Shown piece by piece: positions 8,693 through 18,242 of a stretch of DNA of 64,000 nt. The translations under genes and the position numbers were made by a program. Position 1 is the stretch's first letter. Each line of letters opens with the position of its first letter. Below the pieces are notes generated by a model. The model was not told where the DNA came from. It searched no databases and saw nothing but the letters and a program-made list of their open reading frames with translations. Origin of the DNA: Deltaproteobacteria bacterium (GTDB taxonomy: Bacteria > Myxococcota > Myxococcia > Myxococcales > SZAS-1); NCBI GenBank assembly GCA_018266075.1, contig JAFEBB010000043.1, forward strand, positions 1-64,000. Direction: 5' to 3'.

Positions 8693-10750
8693 TCAGCGCA
8701 ACACCAGGGTTGTGACGCTCATGGCAGGCAGCGTGGGTACCAGGGTGCAGCTTCCGCCGGTGCACGAGAGGGCCGGGGCGGTGCCGCCTGCGGCGACCAC
8801 GGCCGCGGCGCCGTCGACGAGCTGGTACGCGGTGGCCTGGGTGAGGCTGGGCGCGTTGGCGATGCTGATCGACGCGGAGAGCGCCGCGTTGGTCTTGTTG
8901 ATGGCCACGATCTCCACGCCTGGCGAGCCGTCCGAGTGGGTGAAGGCGTAGACGGTGGCGTTGGCGCCGTCGCTCGTCGTGGCGCGGACGGCCGTATCGC
9001 CCACGGTGGCGCCGTTGCCGTCGTAGTTGCGGTACGACGCGTACGCGGCCACGAGGTAGTTGTCGGTGAGCGATTGCAGCGGCCAGGCCATGGCAGCCGT
9101 CGCGCCCTCGCGGCCGAAGATGCCGAGCAGGTCGGCCTCGGCCACGCCGCCTTCGATCTGCGTCTCGCAGCCGGCGTTGTACTCGCTGAACGAGAGTCCA
9201 GGCGCCGCCGTGCCGCCCGCCGGATAGGCCGCGTCGATCTTGCCCAGCAGCCGCGGGATGATCTCGCGCGGGTACCAGGCGTCGTCGAAGTCGTTGGTGG
9301 AGTAGCCGAAGTCGATGCTGTCGGTCTGCTGCGGCGAGAGCTCGGTGTAGTTCGGGTCCCAGAACATGCGCGGCACCTGCACGCACGTGGCCGGGTCCTG
9401 CGCCACGGTGTACCAGTGCACGTCGAACACATCGACCAGCGGGTGCCCTGCGCTCGTCGACGCCGCCGCGAGCTTCTGCAGGTAGTAGTCCACGAACTCC
9501 GTGGGCAGGTGCGGGTCCGAGTAGCTGTGCGCGTAGATGATGCCGTCCTGCGCCACCACCGGGCCGTAGACCTGCGCCTGCGGCCACGCGTTCTTGATGG
9601 CCGTGGCGTACGTCACATTTCGGTTAACGATGTCGTCGTAGGTGGTGACCACGTTCTGCTGGCAGGGCACGGTGCCCGTCCAACCGCCCCAGACCTCGGG
9701 GTGCGTCGAGCCCCAGTAGTTCGGCTCGTTGTCGAGCTGGAAGAAGATGGGCGCGGCGCCGTTGCCGTAGTTCACCTTCAGGTAGTTCACGAACTCGTCC
9801 TGGTACACGGGCCCGGGGCTGGTGGGCGTGCAGCCGCCGCCGCAGCTCGGGCCGGGGCAGGTGCAGAGCGTGCTGCCCTTGGTGGGGTGGTTGGCGACGA
9901 AGTCCGCGCTGTTCGGATCCTGCGACGCGAAGTCCTGGTTGCCGGTGTTCACGCCGATGGAGGTTCCGCAGCTGTTGGTGCCAGGGCAGTTCGGGCCGCC
10001 GGGGTTGCTGCTCGCGTCTCCCCAGGGGTTGTTGATCTGGTTGCTGGTGACGAAGTCCAGGATGGGCACCGTGGCGAGGAACGCCTCACCCTTGGCCTGC
10101 GCGTTGGGGATGGAGTCGTCGCCGGCCAGGATGGCGCCCGCGATGGAGCCCGCGCCGCCTGCAGCGGGGTTGGTGTTGAAGCAATAGTCGTTGCCCGAGT
10201 CCATGAGGTTGGTGAGCCAGTTCCAGTCGGTGTACGAGTCGCCACCTGCGCGGATGACGCCGTACTTGGTGTTGCTGGCCACGAAGCCGCCGAAGCCGTT
10301 GATGCCGTACACGTAGTCCGACACGCGCACCGGCTGCGACGGCGGCTGGTGCTGGCGGTTCGGGCCCTGGTTCAGGTCGATGGAGAACGTCACGCCCGCG
10401 CCGCTGGTGCCGGTGGTGCTCGTGGACGTGCTGGTGCTGGTGCTGGTGGATCCTGTCGTGCCCGTCGTGGTGGCGGTGGTGCTGGTCGTGGAGCTGGCGC
10501 TCGACGTGGTGCCGGTGGTGCTGCTGCCGGTCGTGCCCGAGGTCGAGCTGGGACCCGTGCTGCTCGCAGCGGACGTCGTCGAAGCGCCCGTGGAGCCGGT
10601 GTGGCCTGTGGTCGAGCTCGTGCTGGCGCCTGCGCTGGCTCCCGACGCGCCGGTGCCCGTGGTGCTCCCTGAGCTCGCGGGCGTGACGGTCGCGGTGCAA
10701 GCCGCGAGCACGAGCGCAGCAGGGGACAGCGAAGCGATACGCAAAGTCAT
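8693..10750 (-). CDS. Glycoside hydrolase family 44 lipoprotein (endoglucanase/xyloglucanase/mannanase type)
   Basis: A 685-residue surface enzyme predicted to cleave beta-1,4 glycans such as xyloglucan, cellulose or mannan. The lipobox VLAAC puts the lipidated Cys at residue 18. A Ser/Thr/Gly linker runs to about 118, and then comes the GH44 catalytic domain, beginning with the characteristic YVYGINGFGGF segment. Family catalytic residues are visible: the acid/base Glu342 in QLDNEPNYW and the nucleophile Glu523 in SFSEYN. RAGGDSYTDWNW and WYTVAQDP are also typical of the family. The C-terminal 110 residues form the usual small beta-sandwich. The start ATG has a GAGGGTGG ribosome site. There is no carbohydrate-binding module and no other polysaccharide gene next to it. 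Confidence 0.9.
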   Translation of the reverse strand: MTLRIASLSPAALVLAACTATVTPASSGSTTGTGASGASAGASTSSTTGHTGSTGASTTSAASSTGPSSTSGTTGSSTTGTTSSASSTTSTTATTTGTTGSTSTSTSTSTSTTGTSGAGVTFSIDLNQGPNRQHQPPSQPVRVSDYVYGINGFGGFVASNTKYGVIRAGGDSYTDWNWLTNLMDSGNDYCFNTNPAAGGAGSIAGAILAGDDSIPNAQAKGEAFLATVPILDFVTSNQINNPWGDASSNPGGPNCPGTNSCGTSIGVNTGNQDFASQDPNSADFVANHPTKGSTLCTCPGPSCGGGCTPTSPGPVYQDEFVNYLKVNYGNGAAPIFFQLDNEPNYWGSTHPEVWGGWTGTVPCQQNVVTTYDDIVNRNVTYATAIKNAWPQAQVYGPVVAQDGIIYAHSYSDPHLPTEFVDYYLQKLAAASTSAGHPLVDVFDVHWYTVAQDPATCVQVPRMFWDPNYTELSPQQTDSIDFGYSTNDFDDAWYPREIIPRLLGKIDAAYPAGGTAAPGLSFSEYNAGCETQIEGGVAEADLLGIFGREGATAAMAWPLQSLTDNYLVAAYASYRNYDGNGATVGDTAVRATTSDGANATVYAFTHSDGSPGVEIVAINKTNAALSASISIANAPSLTQATAYQLVDGAAAVVAAGGTAPALSCTGGSCTLVPTLPAMSVTTLVLR

Positions 10751-10841: not shown

Positions 10842-11456
10842 CTACTTCCGCAGGCGGTATGAGCACATCGCTGCGCCGTTGGCGCGGCACGCGTGCTCGA
10901 TGAACGAGACCCGCTGGCCGATGAGCGCGCGCGCCAAGGCGGTGTAGAGGAACTCGGAGCTCGCGCAGATCGGCCCGCGCGTGCCCTGGATGTTCGCGCA
11001 GATCGGGCAGTGCTCGATCTCCAGGTAGTACGCCTCGCCGTCCTCGCGCAGCGACACGTCGGCCCAGATGCCGCTCAAAAAGGCCTGGATCTCGCGCACC
11101 GCCCAGCCGATGCGCTTGTCTGCGGGCACGCTCTTGGCGTCTTCGGCGCGCTTCACCATCTCCGGGTGCTTGAGCAGCATCGGCGCCATCTTGTGGCCGT
11201 AGTTGCTGAGGAACACGCGGGTGAGCGTCTCGCCGGTGAGCTTGAAGACCGTCGCGTAGAGCTTGGCGAGCTCAGACGTGCGGAGAATCGGCGGATCCTG
11301 ATCGCCGTGGGGGGCGGTGAGCATGCGCTCGAGCCCGGCCTGGCGGACGAGGTTGTCGGCCTCGCGGGGATCGAGCTCGTGGAGCGTCTCGAGCACCATG
11401 CGCACGGTGAAGTTCGAGATGGGCTTGTCGTCGTCGTGAGTGGCGGCGACGGTCAT
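10842..11456 (-). CDS. V4R-domain protein
   Basis: A cytoplasmic protein of about 204 residues. The C-terminal 70 residues match the V4R (4-vinyl reductase-like) small-molecule-binding domain. They carry IEHCPICANIQ, then PICASSEFLYTALARALIG, and end with the diagnostic HACRANGAAMCSYRL, whose Cys pairs may bind a ligand or metal. The N-terminal half is helical and resembles the all-helical partner region of myxobacterial V4R proteins. The ATG at 11456 was chosen because a CGGAG ribosome site lies about 9 bases upstream; a longer GTG start at 11489 is possible. The gene is divergent from the small gene at 11643 with 186 bp between them. The exact ligand is unknown. Confidence 0.65.
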   Translation of the reverse strand: MTVAATHDDDKPISNFTVRMVLETLHELDPREADNLVRQAGLERMLTAPHGDQDPPILRTSELAKLYATVFKLTGETLTRVFLSNYGHKMAPMLLKHPEMVKRAEDAKSVPADKRIGWAVREIQAFLSGIWADVSLREDGEAYYLEIEHCPICANIQGTRGPICASSEFLYTALARALIGQRVSFIEHACRANGAAMCSYRLRK

Positions 11457-11642
11457 GGGCGACTCCGCAGTGCGCCCCCGCACGAGCACATGATGTCAGA
11501 TGTTGGACGGAGAGTCGCGGGCCGATGCCTGACGCTCTGCCTCGCGCTCGCCGCCGCGCCCGCGCGACGCTGCAAGCGAACGCGTCGCTGCTCGCCCAGA
11601 GCGATAGGCTCGAGAAGGCGACCCGAGAAAAATGAGCGCTCC

Positions 11643-11942
11643 ATGGCTGTTCGAGTCGCAGTGACCATCCAGGACACGATGGCGTTCTGGAACGACGACC
11701 TCGGCGCCTTCCTGCACGACCCGAATGGCTACTCGCCCACGAACACATTCCTCTACGAGGTTCCCGACGCGTGGGTCGCGAACGGCACGCTCACGCCCGA
11801 CGGCTTCGAGAACGTGTTCAAGTACCTCTACGGCCCGGCCTGGCGCGGGGGAAACGGCGACGGCTCGCAGTACGTCGTGCTTCGCAAAGAGGCCGCCACC
11901 GTGGCCGACGACGACCCGCGCACCTTCAAGCCCATCTCCTGA
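11643..11942 (+). CDS. Small protein of unknown function
   Basis: A 99-residue acidic/aromatic protein starting with MAVRVAVTIQDTMAFW. It has no signal peptide, membrane segment or cysteine, and no family was recognised. The composition (TFLYEVPDAWV, FKYLYGPAW) looks like a small folded cytoplasmic domain rather than noise. The reading frame ends 10 bp before the convergent FG-GAP lipoprotein gene. Ribosome-site evidence is weak, with only GAGAAAA about 15 bases upstream. It might be a short regulator or peptide-binding domain, but nothing in the sequence decides this. Confidence 0.5.
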   Translation: MAVRVAVTIQDTMAFWNDDLGAFLHDPNGYSPTNTFLYEVPDAWVANGTLTPDGFENVFKYLYGPAWRGGNGDGSQYVVLRKEAATVADDDPRTFKPIS

Positions 11943-11952
11943 GCGCGCCGGA

Positions 11953-13263
11953 TCAATTCGACAGCAGCACCTGCACGCTTCCCGTTCCGCAGGCGCCGCC
12001 GAGGACGACGACGTCCGCCGACTGATCGCCATTGAGGTCGCCCACCGCGAGCCCCAGCGGCGGCCCCGACATCGGATAGATCCCGCCGAACACGAAGGTC
12101 CCGCCGAAGTCGCGCTCGACCGTCACGTCGTTGGATTGGGCGTTGAGCGCCACCACCGCCGGCGCGCCCGAGATGTTGGCGAAGGCCGCCCAGGTGGGTC
12201 CCACGCCCGCGAGCTGCGTCGGCGACTGCGGAACGAAGCCACCATCGCCCGCGTTCAAGTACGCGACCACGTCGTTGTTGGTGAGGCTCAAGGTCATGAA
12301 GTCCACGCGGCCGTCGCCGTCCACGTCACCCGAGGCGAGCGCGCGCTGCGGACCGTAGGCGAACGTCACCGGCGTCCCCGGCGCGGCGAGGTTGGGCACC
12401 AGCGTGACCTGCGTCGACGAGGCGATGACTGCATCGAGCCGATTTGGCGCGAGGAAGTGATCGAGCACCAGCGCGACGGGCGAGGCTGGCACGGTCAACG
12501 TCGTCGGCGTGCCTAGGTGCCCCAGACCGTCGCCGAGGAAGATCGACGCGGTGCCCTGCCCGTCCACCGCGACGACGACAGGCCCACCCGCGGGCCAGAT
12601 CGAGCCTGCAGCCAGGAGCGTCGCCTTCTGCGGCAGGCCGTATCGATCGCCGGCCGTGAACGTTCCGTCGCCACGGCCACGCCACACCGCGAGCGCGGGC
12701 CCGCCCTCGTCCGTCTGGGCCACGACGAGGTCTTCGTTCGGATCGCCATCGAGATCGAGCGCGACCACGGCCGTCGGCGCCGACGCGAGCGGCGTGGTGC
12801 CAGCGCTCGACGCGAGTCCGCCATCTGCCTGCGCCGCGAGCACGGTGAGCATCGAGGTCTCGGCCACGATCACGTCCGCGCGACCGTCGCCGTTCTCGTC
12901 ACCGAGCGCCACGCCGATGGGCTGGCCCGCGAGGGGATAGCTCACCGCGGGCTCGAGAATGCGCATGACGCCGGTGGTCCCGCTCGAGCCGAACGTGGTG
13001 CCGCTGGTGGTGGTGCTGCTGCCAGTCGTCGAGCCGCTTCCGGTGGAGCCCTGCGTGCACCCTGCCCCGGTGCTACCCGAAGAGCTGCCCGTGCTCGTGC
13101 TCGCTTCGCCGGGACACGCGCTTCCACCGGGCACGCAGAGATTCACGTTGGCGCAGCAGCTCCAGCCCGGGCCGCAGGGACACGGCCGGCCGGCCTCGTC
13201 GAGGAGCTCGGTGCAACCGGCGAGCGCGAGCGTCGCGAGTGCGATGGAGATCGTCGCGCGCAT
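11953..13263 (-). CDS. FG-GAP/VCBS-repeat lipoprotein, last gene of the ECF-caspase operon
   Basis: A 436-residue lipoprotein with lipobox ALAGC (Cys17). A Cys-rich stretch (CPCGPGWSCCANVNLC) and an STG-rich linker lead into a beta-propeller of FG-GAP/VCBS repeats. Ca-binding loops of the DxDGDGxxD type are seen several times, for example LGDENGDGRADVIV, LDLDGDPNEDLVV, GDVDGDGRVDF and GDLNGDQSADVVV. Its ATG overlaps the TGA of the caspase-like gene (TGATG), which implies translational coupling. It is therefore a likely surface partner of the caspase-like protein. Repeats of this kind act in ligand or matrix binding in other proteins; the ligand here is unknown. Confidence 0.85.
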   Translation of the reverse strand: MRATISIALATLALAGCTELLDEAGRPCPCGPGWSCCANVNLCVPGGSACPGEASTSTGSSSGSTGAGCTQGSTGSGSTTGSSTTTSGTTFGSSGTTGVMRILEPAVSYPLAGQPIGVALGDENGDGRADVIVAETSMLTVLAAQADGGLASSAGTTPLASAPTAVVALDLDGDPNEDLVVAQTDEGGPALAVWRGRGDGTFTAGDRYGLPQKATLLAAGSIWPAGGPVVVAVDGQGTASIFLGDGLGHLGTPTTLTVPASPVALVLDHFLAPNRLDAVIASSTQVTLVPNLAAPGTPVTFAYGPQRALASGDVDGDGRVDFMTLSLTNNDVVAYLNAGDGGFVPQSPTQLAGVGPTWAAFANISGAPAVVALNAQSNDVTVERDFGGTFVFGGIYPMSGPPLGLAVGDLNGDQSADVVVLGGACGTGSVQVLLSN

Positions 13264-14804
13264 CAGAAGCTCGTGGCCCACGCCACCGACGCGCTCGTTG
13301 GCGTGCCGACCAGACTCAACGAGTGATCGCCGTCGCCGTCGGGCCAGAGCAGCAGCGCCACGCCCGCGGTCTCCGCGGCGACGCCGACGCCGCCCAGGAT
13401 CCACGCGAGCCGGTTGTCGCTCCGGATGCGCGCGTTGGCGTTCGCTGCGTCCGCCTGGGATGCATGCGGCGCGACGGATCGGCGCGCCGACTCGGCCTGG
13501 CTCACGGCCACGACCGCAGCCCCACCGCCGACGATGCCCGCACCCACGCTCAACCAGCCCCAGGTGTGCCGGTCGGCAAAAATCGAAGGCTCCTCATTCC
13601 GACGGTCGAGCTCGAGCAGGGTCGGCATCGGGCCCACGTCGGCGCGCGAGAACTCGAGCGAGAACAGGAGCGAGAACGCGTCGTGCGCGGCGCCGCGCGT
13701 GGCCACCCGCGGCGTGCTCGGCTCGAGCGAGGCCACGGTCACCACGTCCTCCGCCGGCGGAATCGAGAACTCCTGATCCGTGTCCAGGCGCCGCAGGTAG
13801 AGCGGTCCCGCGCCCACGGGATGGAGGAGCCGCGTCGTCTGTGACGGGCCATTGTGGAAGTCCGCGAGCCGCACGCCGCGACCGTCCTCGAGCAGGTAGT
13901 GCGCGTGCTCCTTGCCCTGGATCTCGATGTGTCGCGACTCCGCCTGGCGCAGGTCCGCGAGCAGATCACTCCCCTTGGGCGGCCGCGCGAACACATCGGG
14001 CCGGAACTTGTCGTTGGCGATGGCGCCGTTCGCGCGCTGGATGAACGCCACCATCTCCGGATAGCTCACCCAGCCGTCGCCATCCGCGTCCGCCGCGCCA
14101 TAGAGGCCGCTGCGCACCTCGTGGCTGAACACGCCCGCTTGAAAGCCCTCCCACTCGTGGCTCTCGCGCGCCGACGACGTGGAGAGCAAGAGGCCCCACT
14201 TGTCGTTGCTGGCGAGCTCGGGCGTCTGCGTGAAGTTGCGGAGCGGTCTCCGTGAGCCGCCGGGGCCGCGGCCGTACGCGAGGAAGAACGAGTAGCAGGC
14301 GTCGACGATGAGATGCGCGCGGTCGGCGTCGATGGCCTCGAGCACGTCGTGCGCGAGCGTGTGCCCGGTGAGCCGCGCGTCCTCGAGGCTCAGGTATCCG
14401 ACGTCGCCCTCGACGTTCCCGTGCCCCGCGTACACGAAGTACAGCACCGTGCTCAGCTGCCGCGCCTTGGCTTGAGCGACGTCGGACGCGAGCTGCTTCA
14501 CCACCTCGTCGAGCTGTTTCCGCGTGGGCTCGCGCGCTTCGGCGGCGGCCTGCGGGTGGAGGCGCTGGGTGTTCTCGTCGAGCCGCGAGAGCAAGTACGT
14601 GCGCGCGCCCAGCAGACGAAAGAGATCCTCGTAGCTGGCGGCGTCGTCGTCGGCGTACTGGAGCGTGGGCAGGTTCGGCTCGGCCGCGTGGTTCACGCCA
14701 ATGATCAGCGCGAACTGGGCGACGTTCGCTTCCGCAGGCGCTGGCTTCTCGGCGCGCGCGGGCGCAGCAGCGAGCAGCAAGGCCACGAGCGCCGCACGCG
14801 TCAT
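13263..14804 (-). CDS. Caspase-like (peptidase C14) protein with EF-hand loop and two C-terminal membrane helices
   Basis: A 513-residue protein. A signal peptide (1-18) precedes a caspase-like p20 domain (about 30-230). It has the first strand FALIIGVNHA, the catalytic His128 in FVYAGHGN, and the catalytic Cys170 in LIVDACYS. Directly after the domain, residues 239-250 form a canonical EF-hand loop (D239, D241, D243, S247, E250), so Ca2+ control is plausible. Residues 290-400 are a beta-rich region, and two hydrophobic helices (about 415-435 and 467-487) follow. The signal peptide implies export, so the protease domain is probably periplasmic. Its ATG overlaps the anti-sigma stop codon (ATGA) and its stop overlaps the next ATG. 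Substrate and role are unknown; the dyad is intact. Confidence 0.88.
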   Translation of the reverse strand: MTRAALVALLLAAAPARAEKPAPAEANVAQFALIIGVNHAAEPNLPTLQYADDDAASYEDLFRLLGARTYLLSRLDENTQRLHPQAAAEAREPTRKQLDEVVKQLASDVAQAKARQLSTVLYFVYAGHGNVEGDVGYLSLEDARLTGHTLAHDVLEAIDADRAHLIVDACYSFFLAYGRGPGGSRRPLRNFTQTPELASNDKWGLLLSTSSARESHEWEGFQAGVFSHEVRSGLYGAADADGDGWVSYPEMVAFIQRANGAIANDKFRPDVFARPPKGSDLLADLRQAESRHIEIQGKEHAHYLLEDGRGVRLADFHNGPSQTTRLLHPVGAGPLYLRRLDTDQEFSIPPAEDVVTVASLEPSTPRVATRGAAHDAFSLLFSLEFSRADVGPMPTLLELDRRNEEPSIFADRHTWGWLSVGAGIVGGGAAVVAVSQAESARRSVAPHASQADAANANARIRSDNRLAWILGGVGVAAETAGVALLLWPDGDGDHSLSLVGTPTSASVAWATSF

Positions 14805-15559
14805 GGCGCGACCTCGAGGTCCTGCCGCCAGGTCAGCGCGCCAGTCGGACTCGGGACGCCGTCGGGCGCGGCCTGCACGAGCGCCTCGAGCTGCTTCACG
14901 TCCATCGGCTGGTCGAGGAAGAGGCCGACCAGGTGAAGCGCGCGGCCGTCGAAGTGCTGGCTCACGGCCTCCGGCAGCTCCTCGAGCGTGAGCGTGGACT
15001 TCGCCGCGATGGCGCGCGGCGTCTGCGTCGCATCGGTCCAGCTCGGGTGGAACCAGTACACGTGCTTGTGCTCGTCGACGCCGAAGATCATCAAGTATCG
15101 CTTGTCCGCGCGGTTCGCGTACGCGAAGGCCAGCTCGGCGTTGGCGGGGATCGACTTCGCGAGCGGCTCCGACTTCCCCTGCGCGATGCGATAGGCGCGC
15201 ACCTCCACCGAGGCTGGCGCGTTCCCGCCGCGCGCGCTGAAGCCGTCATCGCTCGGCCGATGCGCAACGTTGACAACGACCAGGAGCGCCGCCGCCGCGG
15301 CCAGACCAGCGGGCACCATCACCGGGAGCTGCAGCCAGGACTTCTTGCGGGGCGAGAAGCCAAGGCCGCGCGCGAGACGATCCTGGGCGTTCGGCGCTGC
15401 GGGATCGAGCTTGGCCAGCAGCGCCTGCTTCCCGTAGCGCCGCCGACACGCGTCGCACGTGGGCAAGTGCGCGCGCAGCTCGCGCTCCTGGTCGGGATCG
15501 ATCGCGGCCCGGAAGTGAAGGTCCACCAGGCGTTGCTTCGCGCAGGGCGTGGCGCTCAT
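14801..15559 (-). CDS. Zinc-finger anti-sigma factor with membrane helix and DUF4384-like periplasmic domain
   Basis: A 252-residue protein. The N-terminus has the HxxxCxxC pattern of zinc-binding anti-sigma domains (H31, C35, C38). One transmembrane helix follows at about 78-97. The periplasmic part (115-250) resembles DUF4384: it has VEVRAYRIAQGKSEPL, then ELAFAYANRADKRYLMIFGV, then HVYWFHPSW. This layout predicts an anti-sigma factor that holds the ECF sigma factor at the membrane and responds to an outside signal. Its ATG overlaps the sigma-factor stop codon (ATGA), and its own stop overlaps the caspase-like start, so the three genes are tightly coupled. DUF4384 often accompanies caspase-like proteins in other genomes, which agrees with the neighbour. 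Confidence 0.82.
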   Translation of the reverse strand: MSATPCAKQRLVDLHFRAAIDPDQERELRAHLPTCDACRRRYGKQALLAKLDPAAPNAQDRLARGLGFSPRKKSWLQLPVMVPAGLAAAAALLVVVNVAHRPSDDGFSARGGNAPASVEVRAYRIAQGKSEPLAKSIPANAELAFAYANRADKRYLMIFGVDEHKHVYWFHPSWTDATQTPRAIAAKSTLTLEELPEAVSQHFDGRALHLVGLFLDQPMDVKQLEALVQAAPDGVPSPTGALTWRQDLEVAP

Positions 15560-16164
15560 TCGTCCTCCGCGTTGAGCACGAAGCGGCGCAGCATGGCGCG
15601 GATGCGCAGCTCCCGGTACGCCAGCGTGGTGCGACTGATGTTCAGAGCCGCGGCCGCGGCGCGCTGATCGAGCTGGGCCAGGAACCGCTTCTCGAACACG
15701 CCCGCCCACGCCATGGGCAGCACCTCGCGCTGAAAGCGCTCCACGAGCCGCTTGGCGTGCAGATCGCCGTCGACGTCGGGCTGATCGTCGATGCGCGCTT
15801 CGACCTGCAGCGCAGCCTCCAGCGGCACGTTGCGACCCTGCGCGCGCAGCAGATCGATGGCCTGGTTCTTGGCCAGTGTGCGCAGCCACGCGCTCATCGA
15901 TCCGCCGGTGAAGCTCTGGCGCAGCTCGGCGCTGGAGAGCACGCGGAAGAAGACCTCGTGGATCACGGTCTCGCGATCGGCCACGCCGAGCATCCCCGCC
16001 ACCACGCGATCCACGGCGGCGAAGTGCTCGCGGTAGCACGCCTCGAGGACAGACCGGTCGCCAGCATGGAAGCGGGCGAGCCAGGCCTCGTCGTCGCGCG
16101 TGACCATCGCGATCTTCGCCAGGAAGCCGGCCGCTGAAAGGGAGCTCTCGACCGCCGCCGACAT
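15556..16164 (-). CDS. ECF-type RNA polymerase sigma factor
   Basis: A 202-residue sigma factor of the extracytoplasmic-function group. Region 2 spans about 33-110, with VIHEVFFRVL (2.2-2.3) and TLAKNQAIDLLRAQG (2.4). Region 4 spans about 138-195, with the helix-turn-helix RAAAAALNISRTTLAYREL. It lacks region 1.1 and region 3, as expected. The ATG at 16164 has a GGGAGGA ribosome site about 9 bases upstream; a shorter start at MVTRDDEA is possible. Its stop overlaps the anti-sigma start. The gene starts 42 bp after the propeller lipoprotein gene on the same strand, so its promoter lies either before that gene or inside its 3' end. The recognised promoter sequence could not be inferred. Confidence 0.9.
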   Translation of the reverse strand: MSAAVESSLSAAGFLAKIAMVTRDDEAWLARFHAGDRSVLEACYREHFAAVDRVVAGMLGVADRETVIHEVFFRVLSSAELRQSFTGGSMSAWLRTLAKNQAIDLLRAQGRNVPLEAALQVEARIDDQPDVDGDLHAKRLVERFQREVLPMAWAGVFEKRFLAQLDQRAAAAALNISRTTLAYRELRIRAMLRRFVLNAEDE

Positions 16165-16206
16165 TACGGAGTTCCTCCCGTGCGCTCAACCGGGCCTCAC
16201 GCCGCG

Positions 16207-18039
16207 CTACAGCGGCGCCACCCAGAGGCCGGCCATGCTGGGATCGCTGGAGGCGTCGCGGTTGAAGAAGATGCGCGTGGGCGCGGCGATGGGCGCCCAC
16301 GACTCACCGGTGACGTCGGAGGCGAGGGTGCGCGTGTTCCCGGCGGCGTCGAGCTCGACCATGACCGACGCGGTGCCGGTGGCATTGGCCTCGAGGAGCA
16401 CCACGTCGTGGCCCAGCCAGCCGCCGTAGGGGATGGCGGAGACGCCGCTGTTGAACGACTCCAGCTCGGTGCGCCCATCCGCGGTGTACATGCCGAGGTT
16501 GGTGCTGGTGACGAGCAACCGCGGCGTCGGCGTGCCCGGCTCGTAGGCGACCTCGTAGCCCGGCAGGTCGGTGGTGAGCCCGCTGGCCAGGTCCACCACG
16601 TGCACCATCTGGTCCTCGCCGACCACGGCGACGTGCGCGTCATCGGGGGTGACCACGAAGTTGTCGTTCACGTGCCCCAGCGCCGGGCTCACCAGGCGGA
16701 AGTCGCTCTGGAGCGAGCCGATGAAGAGCTGATCGTTGCCATAGTTGGTCTCATCGATGACGTAGACGAACACCAGGTTGCCGTCCGGGCTGAAGCTCAC
16801 GTTGCCCAGGTACTCGGTGTCGTTCGTGTTCGCTGGGATGCCGTGGATCGACGCGTCTTGCCCGCTGCGCAGGTCGTGAACAGCCACGCCGAAGGTGCCG
16901 TCGGCGAACTGCGTCGCATAGGCGAGCCGGCCCGAGTCGCTCGAGAAGACGGGCAGCATGTAGCCGGAGAGCGCCGCCGGGAGGTCCACGCGGTTGCCTC
17001 CGTGCGCGTCGACCACGCTGATGGCGGGCGGGCCAGCCATGGGGCCGTGCTCGAACACGAGGTGGTTCCCGTCCGGAGACCACACCGCGTTGCCGCTCGA
17101 CTCCACCGTGCCGTCCACGATCACGGTGCGCGCGGTGGTGCTCACGTCCTCGACGATCAAGGTCGGGCCAAGGCCGTTGGGCGTGGGCTCGACGATGGCG
17201 ATCGCGCTCCCGGAAGGGCTGAAGTTGACCTGGTCCTGGCCGACGTTGCCGAGATCGGTCACCGTGCCCGTCGAGAGCGTGGCCGCGAAGGTGTCGCTGC
17301 TGGCGGACTCGAAGAAGAAGAAGGTGTCGGTGTTGATCACCGCCATCGCGTAGTCCTCGAACGTGGCGCCCTGGGCAATGAGCTGCACGTTCGAGCCGTC
17401 GATATTGGCGATCTTGAGGTTGCCCTCCGAGCCGCACGGGTCCGCGATGTCGTCGACGTACACCACGTGCTGGCCGTCGCCGGTGAACGCCACCGAGTAG
17501 AAGTCGACCTGCGTGCCCAGGGTGACCGGCGCGTTGCCGCAGGTGCTCGCCAGGACCACGGTACCCACGTGCGAGTTGTAGCCGCAGCCCTCGCCGCAGT
17601 GGGTGACCGTGTAGTCGTGGGTCACAGCGACCACCGACTCCGTTGGCGCCACCGTGAGCACCCAGGCTGCAGCGGGATCGATCAGCGTCGGCCCGCTCGA
17701 GGCGGGGACGCACGCGCCGCCCGTGGTCGCCGAGCCGTTGCCGCTCGTGCCGGTGCTGATTCCGCCGAAGCTGCCCGCGCTGGTGGTTCCGCTGATGCCG
17801 CCGGAGGTCGTGCTCGTGCTGAAGCCGCCCCCTGTCGTCGTGGTGCTGATGCCGCCGTACGTCGTCGTCGTGCTGAAGCCGCTGCTCGTCGTCGTGCTGT
17901 TGATGCCGCCGCTCGTCGTCGTGCCCATGGACGTCGAGCTGGCGGTGTCATCGCCGCCCTCGTGGGCGGGGTGAAAGTCGGTGAGCCCGCAGCCCGCGAC
18001 GAGGGCGCAGACGAGGATGCTGATCAGGTTGCGGTTCAT
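16207..18039 (-). CDS. Beta-propeller (TolB/WD40-like) lipoprotein with tandem-repeat linker
   Basis: A 610-residue lipoprotein with lipobox LVAGC (Cys17). Residues 36-100 are an imperfect tandem repeat of about 11-12 residues built on GG[I/F]STTTT. The rest is a beta-propeller. Blades show the TolB/PD40-like pattern VNFSPSGSAIAIVE, VWSPDGNHLVFE, FSSDSGRLAYAT and VSFSPDGNLVFV. Six Cys residues between 105 and 205 may form disulfides. The gene is the first of a minus-strand series leading to the ECF sigma, anti-sigma, caspase-like and FG-GAP lipoprotein genes, with 42 bp to the sigma gene. It is a likely outer-membrane or surface component, possibly regulated by the sigma factor. The ligand is unknown. 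Confidence 0.8.
   Translation of the reverse strand: MNRNLISILVCALVAGCGLTDFHPAHEGGDDTASSTSMGTTTSGGINSTTTSSGFSTTTTYGGISTTTTGGGFSTSTTSGGISGTTSAGSFGGISTGTSGNGSATTGGACVPASSGPTLIDPAAAWVLTVAPTESVVAVTHDYTVTHCGEGCGYNSHVGTVVLASTCGNAPVTLGTQVDFYSVAFTGDGQHVVYVDDIADPCGSEGNLKIANIDGSNVQLIAQGATFEDYAMAVINTDTFFFFESASSDTFAATLSTGTVTDLGNVGQDQVNFSPSGSAIAIVEPTPNGLGPTLIVEDVSTTARTVIVDGTVESSGNAVWSPDGNHLVFEHGPMAGPPAISVVDAHGGNRVDLPAALSGYMLPVFSSDSGRLAYATQFADGTFGVAVHDLRSGQDASIHGIPANTNDTEYLGNVSFSPDGNLVFVYVIDETNYGNDQLFIGSLQSDFRLVSPALGHVNDNFVVTPDDAHVAVVGEDQMVHVVDLASGLTTDLPGYEVAYEPGTPTPRLLVTSTNLGMYTADGRTELESFNSGVSAIPYGGWLGHDVVLLEANATGTASVMVELDAAGNTRTLASDVTGESWAPIAAPTRIFFNRDASSDPSMAGLWVAPL
17740..17935 (-). repeat. Coding tandem repeat (Ser/Thr/Gly linker)
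   Basis: Imperfect tandem units of about 33-36 bp encode a linker of alternating GGIS/GGFS and TTTT blocks in the propeller lipoprotein. Unit-to-unit identity is highest at 17810-17925, where CTCGTCGTCGT-type blocks recur. Such a repeat can change length by slippage and so vary the stalk between lipid anchor and propeller. Confidence 0.7.
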
Positions 18040-18132
18040 CGCCTCTCCGACGGTTGAGTGGGGCCGCTTGGGGCCCTGCCCTCGAACGATCGGGGAGGCG
18101 CGTTTGGACGAAGGATTCGGCGGGCGCGCGCG

Positions 18133-18166
18133 GAAAAAAGAAAACCCCCGGGGTTACCGGGGGTTT
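18133..18166 (-). terminator. Rho-independent terminator of tRNA-Gly
   Basis: On the minus strand, AAACCCCCGG pairs with CCGGGGGTTT around a 5-base loop, and a T-rich run (TTTTCTTTTTTCC) follows. It starts 1 base after the CCA end of tRNA-Gly. This is the clearest intrinsic terminator in the window. Confidence 0.85.
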
Positions 18167-18167
18167 G

Positions 18168-18242
18168 TGGAGCGGGAAAAGGGATTTGAACCCTCGACCC
18201 TCGCCTTGGCAAGGCGATGCTCTACCGCTGAGCTATTCCCGC
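18168..18242 (-). tRNA. tRNA-Gly (anticodon GCC)
   Basis: A 75-nt tRNA with the CCA end encoded. The acceptor stem GCGGGAA pairs with TTCCCGC. The anticodon stem-loop is TCGCC-TTGCCAA-GGCGA, giving anticodon GCC, and the T-arm loop is TTCAAAT. All stems pair well. It lies about 100 bp downstream of pgsA on the same strand, with its own promoter and terminator. Confidence 0.97.

Follow-up and report, generated by a model that had tools for sequence, protein, structure and literature searches.

A candidate self-regulated unit of sigma factor, anti-sigma factor, caspase-like protein and lipoproteins in a member of the Myxococcota

In Escherichia coli, RpoE and RseA form a pair of an extracytoplasmic function (ECF) sigma factor and a class I membrane anti-sigma factor. 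ECF54 sigma factors are encoded next to CHAT, subtilase or carboxypeptidase genes and have been discussed as being controlled through proteolysis, with no anti-sigma factor involved (PMC8999054). According to a 2012 study, four of the five metacaspases of Myxococcus xanthus are encoded in operons with sigma-70 factors, and such sigma-70/metacaspase operons recur in Anaeromyxobacter, Haliangium, Sorangium, Ralstonia and Fibrobacter (PMC3501461). Here, we analyzed five minus-strand genes at positions 11953-18039 of a 64,000-nucleotide stretch of contig JAFEBB010000043.1 from a Deltaproteobacteria bacterium (Myxococcota; the whole stretch is referred to as the window), which a first-pass annotation had proposed to represent an undescribed system. 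Their products are two lipoproteins, an ECF sigma factor, an anti-sigma factor and a caspase-like protein, and they probably constitute a dedicated, self-amplifying envelope-signalling unit. The role of bacterial caspase homologues is a long-standing question, and this unit links one of them to a sigma switch.

All five open reading frames run head to tail, as had been annotated. Gene 1 (16207-18039) encodes a lipoprotein with the lipobox LVAGC, a Ser/Thr/Gly linker and a PD40/TolB-like propeller (Pfam PD40, E 5.2e-8; TIGR02800, 1e-9), followed by the genes for the sigma factor (gene 2, 15556-16164), the anti-sigma factor (gene 3, 14801-15559) and the exported caspase-like protein (gene 4, 13263-14804). 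The last gene of the unit (gene 5, 11953-13263) encodes a second lipoprotein with a Ser/Thr/Gly linker (Pfam FG-GAP_3, 1.7e-22), the sequence of which from the lipid-bearing cysteine onward is CTELLDEAGRPCPCGPGWSCCANVNLCVPGGSACP; the Pfam matches agree with the earlier description of the first and last products as linker-bearing propeller lipoproteins. The reported overlaps are exact, with ATGA between sigma and anti-sigma genes (15556-15559), ATGA between anti-sigma and caspase genes (14801-14804), and TGATG between the caspase and FG-GAP lipoprotein genes (13261-13265). These overlaps are compatible with co-translation, but the claim that the genes must be co-translated exceeds what sequence alone permits. 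Genes 1 and 2 are separated by 42 bp with no terminator found between them in a terminator scan, and a promoter scan found no sigma-70 consensus promoters across the region.

About 25 genomes of the phylum encode homologues of the caspase-like protein with 45-57% identity over nearly the full length, and some caspase match was found in 158 of 195 genomes, many of these matches being to the caspase domain alone. Searches with profiles built from the aligned anti-sigma factors (A1), caspases (A2), sigma factors (A3) and a cysteine-rich lipoprotein module (A4, the Cys module described below) revealed that the order sigma, anti-sigma, caspase, lipoprotein recurs repeatedly across relatives, most of the loci having ATGA at both inner junctions (sigma/anti-sigma and anti-sigma/caspase). 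More distant loci encode a sigma factor of another, canonical type (LRF..LSY.EIA..L..PLGTVKSR; Pfam confirms this for locus L071), and the anti-sigma, caspase and lipoprotein genes stay adjacent despite this replacement. In three loci of one genus (L126-L128), the lipoprotein gene is located 5′ of the trio. Judged by these profiles, the core sigma/anti-sigma/caspase trio is conserved across the phylum. Four of the five genes keep their order elsewhere, but no homologue of the PD40 lipoprotein gene was found in the ortholog loci examined, and by this comparison that gene is specific to its own locus.

The genome itself contains at least eight caspase genes including that of the window, a lower bound as the PF00656 search of the genome omitted the window caspase (39.7 bits by hmmscan). 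Seven of the eight are arranged in the order sigma, anti-sigma, caspase, the six further trios being on contigs C62, C25, C9, C4, C50 and C42 (loci L141-L145 and L147), most of them with a lipoprotein gene of their own, and the caspase on contig C23 (L146) is solitary. The sigma factors on C62, C9 and C50 and the C62 anti-sigma factor were assigned by visual inspection of position, length and sequence, their profile scores being below threshold. A lipoprotein gene lies directly 3′ of the caspase gene in six of the seven units, compared to 44 of 336 background genes (13%; binomial P = 3e-5), all called with a simple codon model by which individual starts may be off. The presence of a lipoprotein gene 5′ of the sigma gene, as found in the window, is not significant, with two such cases among six units checked.

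Upstream of the sigma gene, 7 of the 12 representatives compared share the promoter-like motif TTCGTCCA-N16-CGTT, with no two-block word found in more than three representatives of any control set (20 sets of mononucleotide shuffles). It is absent directly before the window sigma gene, and a perfect copy (TTCGTCCA AACGCGCCTCCCCGAT CGTT) precedes the PD40 lipoprotein gene at 18085-18112 (minus strand; P1). No other exact copy occurs in this genome of 7.84 Mb, where up to one mismatch gives 10 matches compared to 11 for the reversed control pattern. In 15 genomes that carry the unit, 34 exact copies were counted, 28 of them within it: 14 before the sigma gene, 11 in the stretch from the caspase stop to the lipoprotein gene, and three others (before a divergent Cys-module lipoprotein gene, just after a lipoprotein gene, and the window copy). 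The 14 in-unit copies not located before sigma are independent of the derivation of the motif. Exact copies in genomes G129 and G131 (with the same letters in G120 and G132) belong to a conserved region of housekeeping genes and were disregarded. Two exact copies far from the unit, at position 4236 of L208 and 4044 of L209, are conserved in related genomes and lie near a gene for a large exported protein, FG-GAP-like by eye, with a methyltransferase-like gene also present in L209.

From the position of the motif, we infer that the sigma factor reads TTCGTCCA-N16-CGTT, and given the rarity of the motif and its placement at the unit, it very probably has few targets other than its own operon and lipoprotein. 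In the window, the PD40 lipoprotein gene has very probably come to separate this promoter from the sigma gene. The location of the only genomic copy before gene 1 supports a single self-regulated five-gene transcript, and the conserved ATGA overlaps in relatives likewise support the single transcript proposed earlier. Two other proposals were considered and not retained. The classical ECF promoter GGAAC-N-GTC has one match in the window alone, which is not conserved in relatives, and the treatment of the PD40 gene as an unrelated upstream unit is weakened by the motif in front of it.

The FG-GAP lipoprotein begins with a module with the pattern C-x10-CPCxxGWxCC-x5-C-x6-C counted from the lipid Cys (13093-13215, minus strand). 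The same pattern opens the caspase-adjacent lipoproteins of relatives, with nine invariant columns in an alignment of 19 sequences, and in close relatives the caspase almost always has a lipoprotein with this Cys module beside it. The profile search found one copy in the own genome (E 1.5e-13; the next match, at E 0.005, crosses a stop) and detected the module in 42 of 195 genomes of the phylum, mostly as a single copy and mostly beside a caspase. The exceptions are three genomes with the module and no caspase nearby (L129-L131) and likewise a few weaker matches. These caspase-less lipoproteins, at 4130-7954 of L129, 7276-7659 of L130 and 7698-11516 of L131, all from related genomes, are possibly orphans left after loss of the trio. 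Beyond the module, the lipoproteins vary, carrying FN3 plus FG-GAP repeats, a Big_6 immunoglobulin-like domain, a weak VWA match, a weak tectonin-like match or no recognised domain. As aligned, the Cys-module lipoprotein is composed of a constant anchor and an exchangeable display part.

The sigma factor matches Sigma70_r2 in Pfam (E 4.7e-7) and has a divergent region 4 of the RTTLAYQE type. Sigma70_r4_2 was recognised in 11 of the 12 aligned sigma sequences (E up to 1) but not in that of the window, which aligns through region 4 with sequences in which it was recognised. Regions 2 and 4 are thus present, and regions 1 and 3 are not, which bears out the ECF assignment of the first-pass annotation. 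The anti-sigma factor has an H-x3-C-x2-C finger that is kept in 19 of 22 homologues, although its zf-HC2 score remains under the Pfam cut-off (18.5 versus 22.2 bits; E 0.002). Its AlphaFold model (predicted local distance difference test, pLDDT, 86.7) shows an anti-sigma domain made of helices, a single membrane helix (residues 83-99 in the model; the helix is placed overall at about 78-99) and a periplasmic beta-sandwich, and a search of PDB folds with this model gave no significant match. The finger followed by one membrane helix, in a gene beside that of the sigma factor, corresponds to the class I zinc-finger anti-sigma layout, in agreement with the earlier one-pass assignment, and the protein presumably binds and holds the ECF sigma factor.

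Gene 4 encodes a signal peptide followed by a Peptidase_C14 domain with a His-Cys dyad (E 6e-10, 39.7 bits against a Pfam cut-off of 21.4). The catalytic residues His128 (codon 14421-14423, minus strand) and Cys170 (14295-14297, minus strand) are invariant in all 24 homologues. An EF-hand-type loop, DADGDGWVSYPE, is present at residues 239-250 (14055-14090, minus strand) with the canonical pattern D-x-D-x-D-G-x-V-S-x-x-E, although it is below the Pfam EF-hand cut-off; D239 and E250 are kept in 24/24 homologues, and positions 3 and 5 are D or N in 24/24. Export, dyad and EF-hand loop had all been noted earlier and are all present. In the AlphaFold model (pLDDT 83.6), a signal helix precedes the caspase domain (about residues 28-258) and a beta-sandwich (about 268-360). 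Two C-terminal helices, 408-443 and 450-485, form a membrane anchor (13341-13571, minus strand; also supported by hydropathy) with a net positive loop between them, which would place the catalytic part on the periplasmic side. The protein is accordingly modelled as a periplasm-facing domain on a two-helix anchor, a predicted topology, and it is presumably an active periplasmic protease. Phe or Trp is the last residue in 18 of the 24 homologues, behind a predicted beta hairpin, an ending reminiscent of the C-terminal tails that are recognised by PDZ domains, for example.

Upstream, the unit is bounded by an intrinsic terminator (18142-18166, minus strand; terminator scan) behind a tRNA-Gly gene (18168-18242; ARAGORN). 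The downstream boundary is a convergent small open reading frame of 99 amino acids on the plus strand (11643-11942; gene call with a codon model), the stop of which is about 10 bp from that of gene 5. Beyond it, a V4R-domain protein is encoded on the same strand as the unit at 10842-11489. Another exported protein of the window (8693-10750), a member of glycoside hydrolase family 44, contains the same Ser/Thr/Gly-rich linker.

In the proposed mechanism, the membrane-spanning zinc-finger anti-sigma factor would hold the ECF sigma factor until a signal from outside the cytoplasm released it, probably relayed by the lipoproteins, by the periplasmic caspase-like protein or by both. The freed sigma factor would then act on hardly any promoter other than that of the unit itself, TTCGTCCA-N16-CGTT, which precedes the operon and in many relatives occurs again ahead of the partner lipoprotein gene. 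The output would be the unit's own products, a membrane-anchored EF-loop caspase-like protein and a Cys-module lipoprotein with an exchangeable display domain. A surface signal that releases the sigma factor and proteolysis linked to Ca2+, as suggested in the first-pass annotation, are both plausible, and the caspase would most likely act on the DUF4384-like periplasmic domain of the co-translated anti-sigma factor or on the partner lipoprotein. Several observations weigh against this scheme. In four loci (L053, L056, L057 and L062), the motif occurs only with one mismatch and points toward a divergently oriented gene ahead of sigma; in the two scanned (L053 and L062) this gene encodes a CotH-kinase lipoprotein, and such genes are likely extra regulon members in these four genomes. 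The motif was not found in L060. Degenerate sites could widen the regulon, yet one-mismatch matches in the own genome are at the control level. Moreover, the window anti-sigma factor has no Pfam match to DUF4384 over the gathering score, so the resemblance claimed earlier was not detected in this protein itself. It does hold through relatives: DUF4384 was matched in 2 of 22 homologues (E up to 1), and since the paralogous anti-sigma factor encoded on contig C9 scores against the family profile (71.8 bits) as well as against DUF4384 (31.7 bits, above the cut-off), the resemblance is valid at the family level.

Within this scheme, the caspase may be effector, activator or both. As an effector, it would be produced in larger amounts when envelope damage is sensed, and would serve in processing or shedding of surface lipoproteins, or in cell death or predation. 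The motif is found almost exclusively at the unit's genes, which would make the unit's products the output, and Myxococcus metacaspases have been suggested as possible autolysis enzymes in the 2012 study (PMC3501461). However, the anti-sigma/caspase pairing is kept across sigma types, suggesting a role beyond output; we regard the effector role as a possibility that is less likely than not. That same pairing, with its ATGA overlap retained in relatives even with a different sigma type, speaks for an activating protease, which in response to Ca2+ or a lipoprotein-borne signal would make the site-1 cut in the anti-sigma factor, regulated proteolysis then freeing the sigma factor. The intact dyad, the Ca2+-type loop and the predicted periplasmic location beside the periplasmic domain of the anti-sigma factor fit this role, but no cleavage site was identified, autoregulation alone would also explain the co-transcription, and the caspase could be output only; activation is offered tentatively as a minority possibility. 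A more specific version is rather doubtful. In it, a Ca2+-gated, membrane-anchored periplasmic caspase would be the lipoprotein-driven site-1 protease of the anti-sigma factor and the sigma factor would amplify the unit alone, with the constant Cys module coupling the lipoprotein to the switch and the exchangeable display domain setting the signal. If true, this would be a modular caspase-based device for outside-to-inside signalling, with up to seven paralogous copies in a single genome.

Two further explanations were considered. The lipoprotein genes might merely adjoin the trio by chance, as 13% of the sampled genes of this genome are lipoprotein-like and no counterpart of the PD40 gene was found in relatives. 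The Cys module, however, is largely specific to the neighbourhood of the caspase, the motif lies before the PD40 gene and not before sigma, and the last two genes overlap by TGATG, all of which make coincidence improbable. Caspase-like proteases also occur in bacterial conflict systems (PMC8195603), and the window caspase has a weak match (28.7 bits) to the EACC1-associated caspase model NF047832, far below its cut-off of 140, which does not place it in that family. Scans with PADLOC (E 0.1) and NCBIfam assigned none of the five proteins to a defence system or specific family, and the caspase is exported, widespread in the phylum and present in several copies per genome with no NTPase or nuclease partner seen. 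An anti-phage or conflict role is very improbable.

The dedicated envelope-signalling unit is not wholly new as an idea, since sigma-70/metacaspase operons were reported in 2012 (PMC3501461). The window unit falls within the definition of that study, with sigma-70 and caspase genes in one predicted operon in relatives of Myxococcus, and shares with those operons their repetition within a genome (4/5 caspases in M. xanthus, 7/8 here). Only the sigma factors are named as shared there, and the main text describes no DUF4384-like anti-sigma factor, Cys-module lipoprotein, EF-type loop or promoter motif, all features of the present unit (PMC3501461). No later description of the unit was found in a search of mostly open-access literature on caspases with anti-sigma factors, DUF4384 or lipoproteins. 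Thus, the claim of an undescribed system stands for the lipoprotein module and the private promoter, which seem to be new parts, but not for the sigma/caspase operon. With a single findable promoter and a constant/variable lipoprotein, signal, switch and output each become testable in myxobacteria that carry closely related units. The motif can serve directly as a reporter, and the lipoprotein architecture suggests that what is sensed or displayed differs between related units.

Like RpoE-RseA, the window unit has a sigma gene followed by that of a one-pass anti-sigma factor with a cytoplasmic anti-sigma domain, and apparent autoregulation. It differs in having an overlapping caspase-like gene in place of a DegS-type PDZ protease, a regulon apparently almost confined to the unit, and an unusual sigma region 4. 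The top PDB match of the caspase model is the paracaspase MALT1 with its Ig3 domain (E 7e-7), which also has a caspase domain followed by a beta-sandwich; the global similarity is low (template modelling score about 0.3 by query, 11-15% identity), and the membrane anchor and EF loop belong to the bacterial protein. Some EACC1, EACC2 and TRADD-N neighbourhoods likewise combine caspase domains with ECF sigma factors, but these represent different, conflict-type architectures (PMC8195603). With ECF54, the unit shares the linkage of an ECF sigma factor to a protease of the caspase superfamily, whereas here an anti-sigma factor is present and the protease is an exported C14 protein rather than CHAT (PMC8999054).

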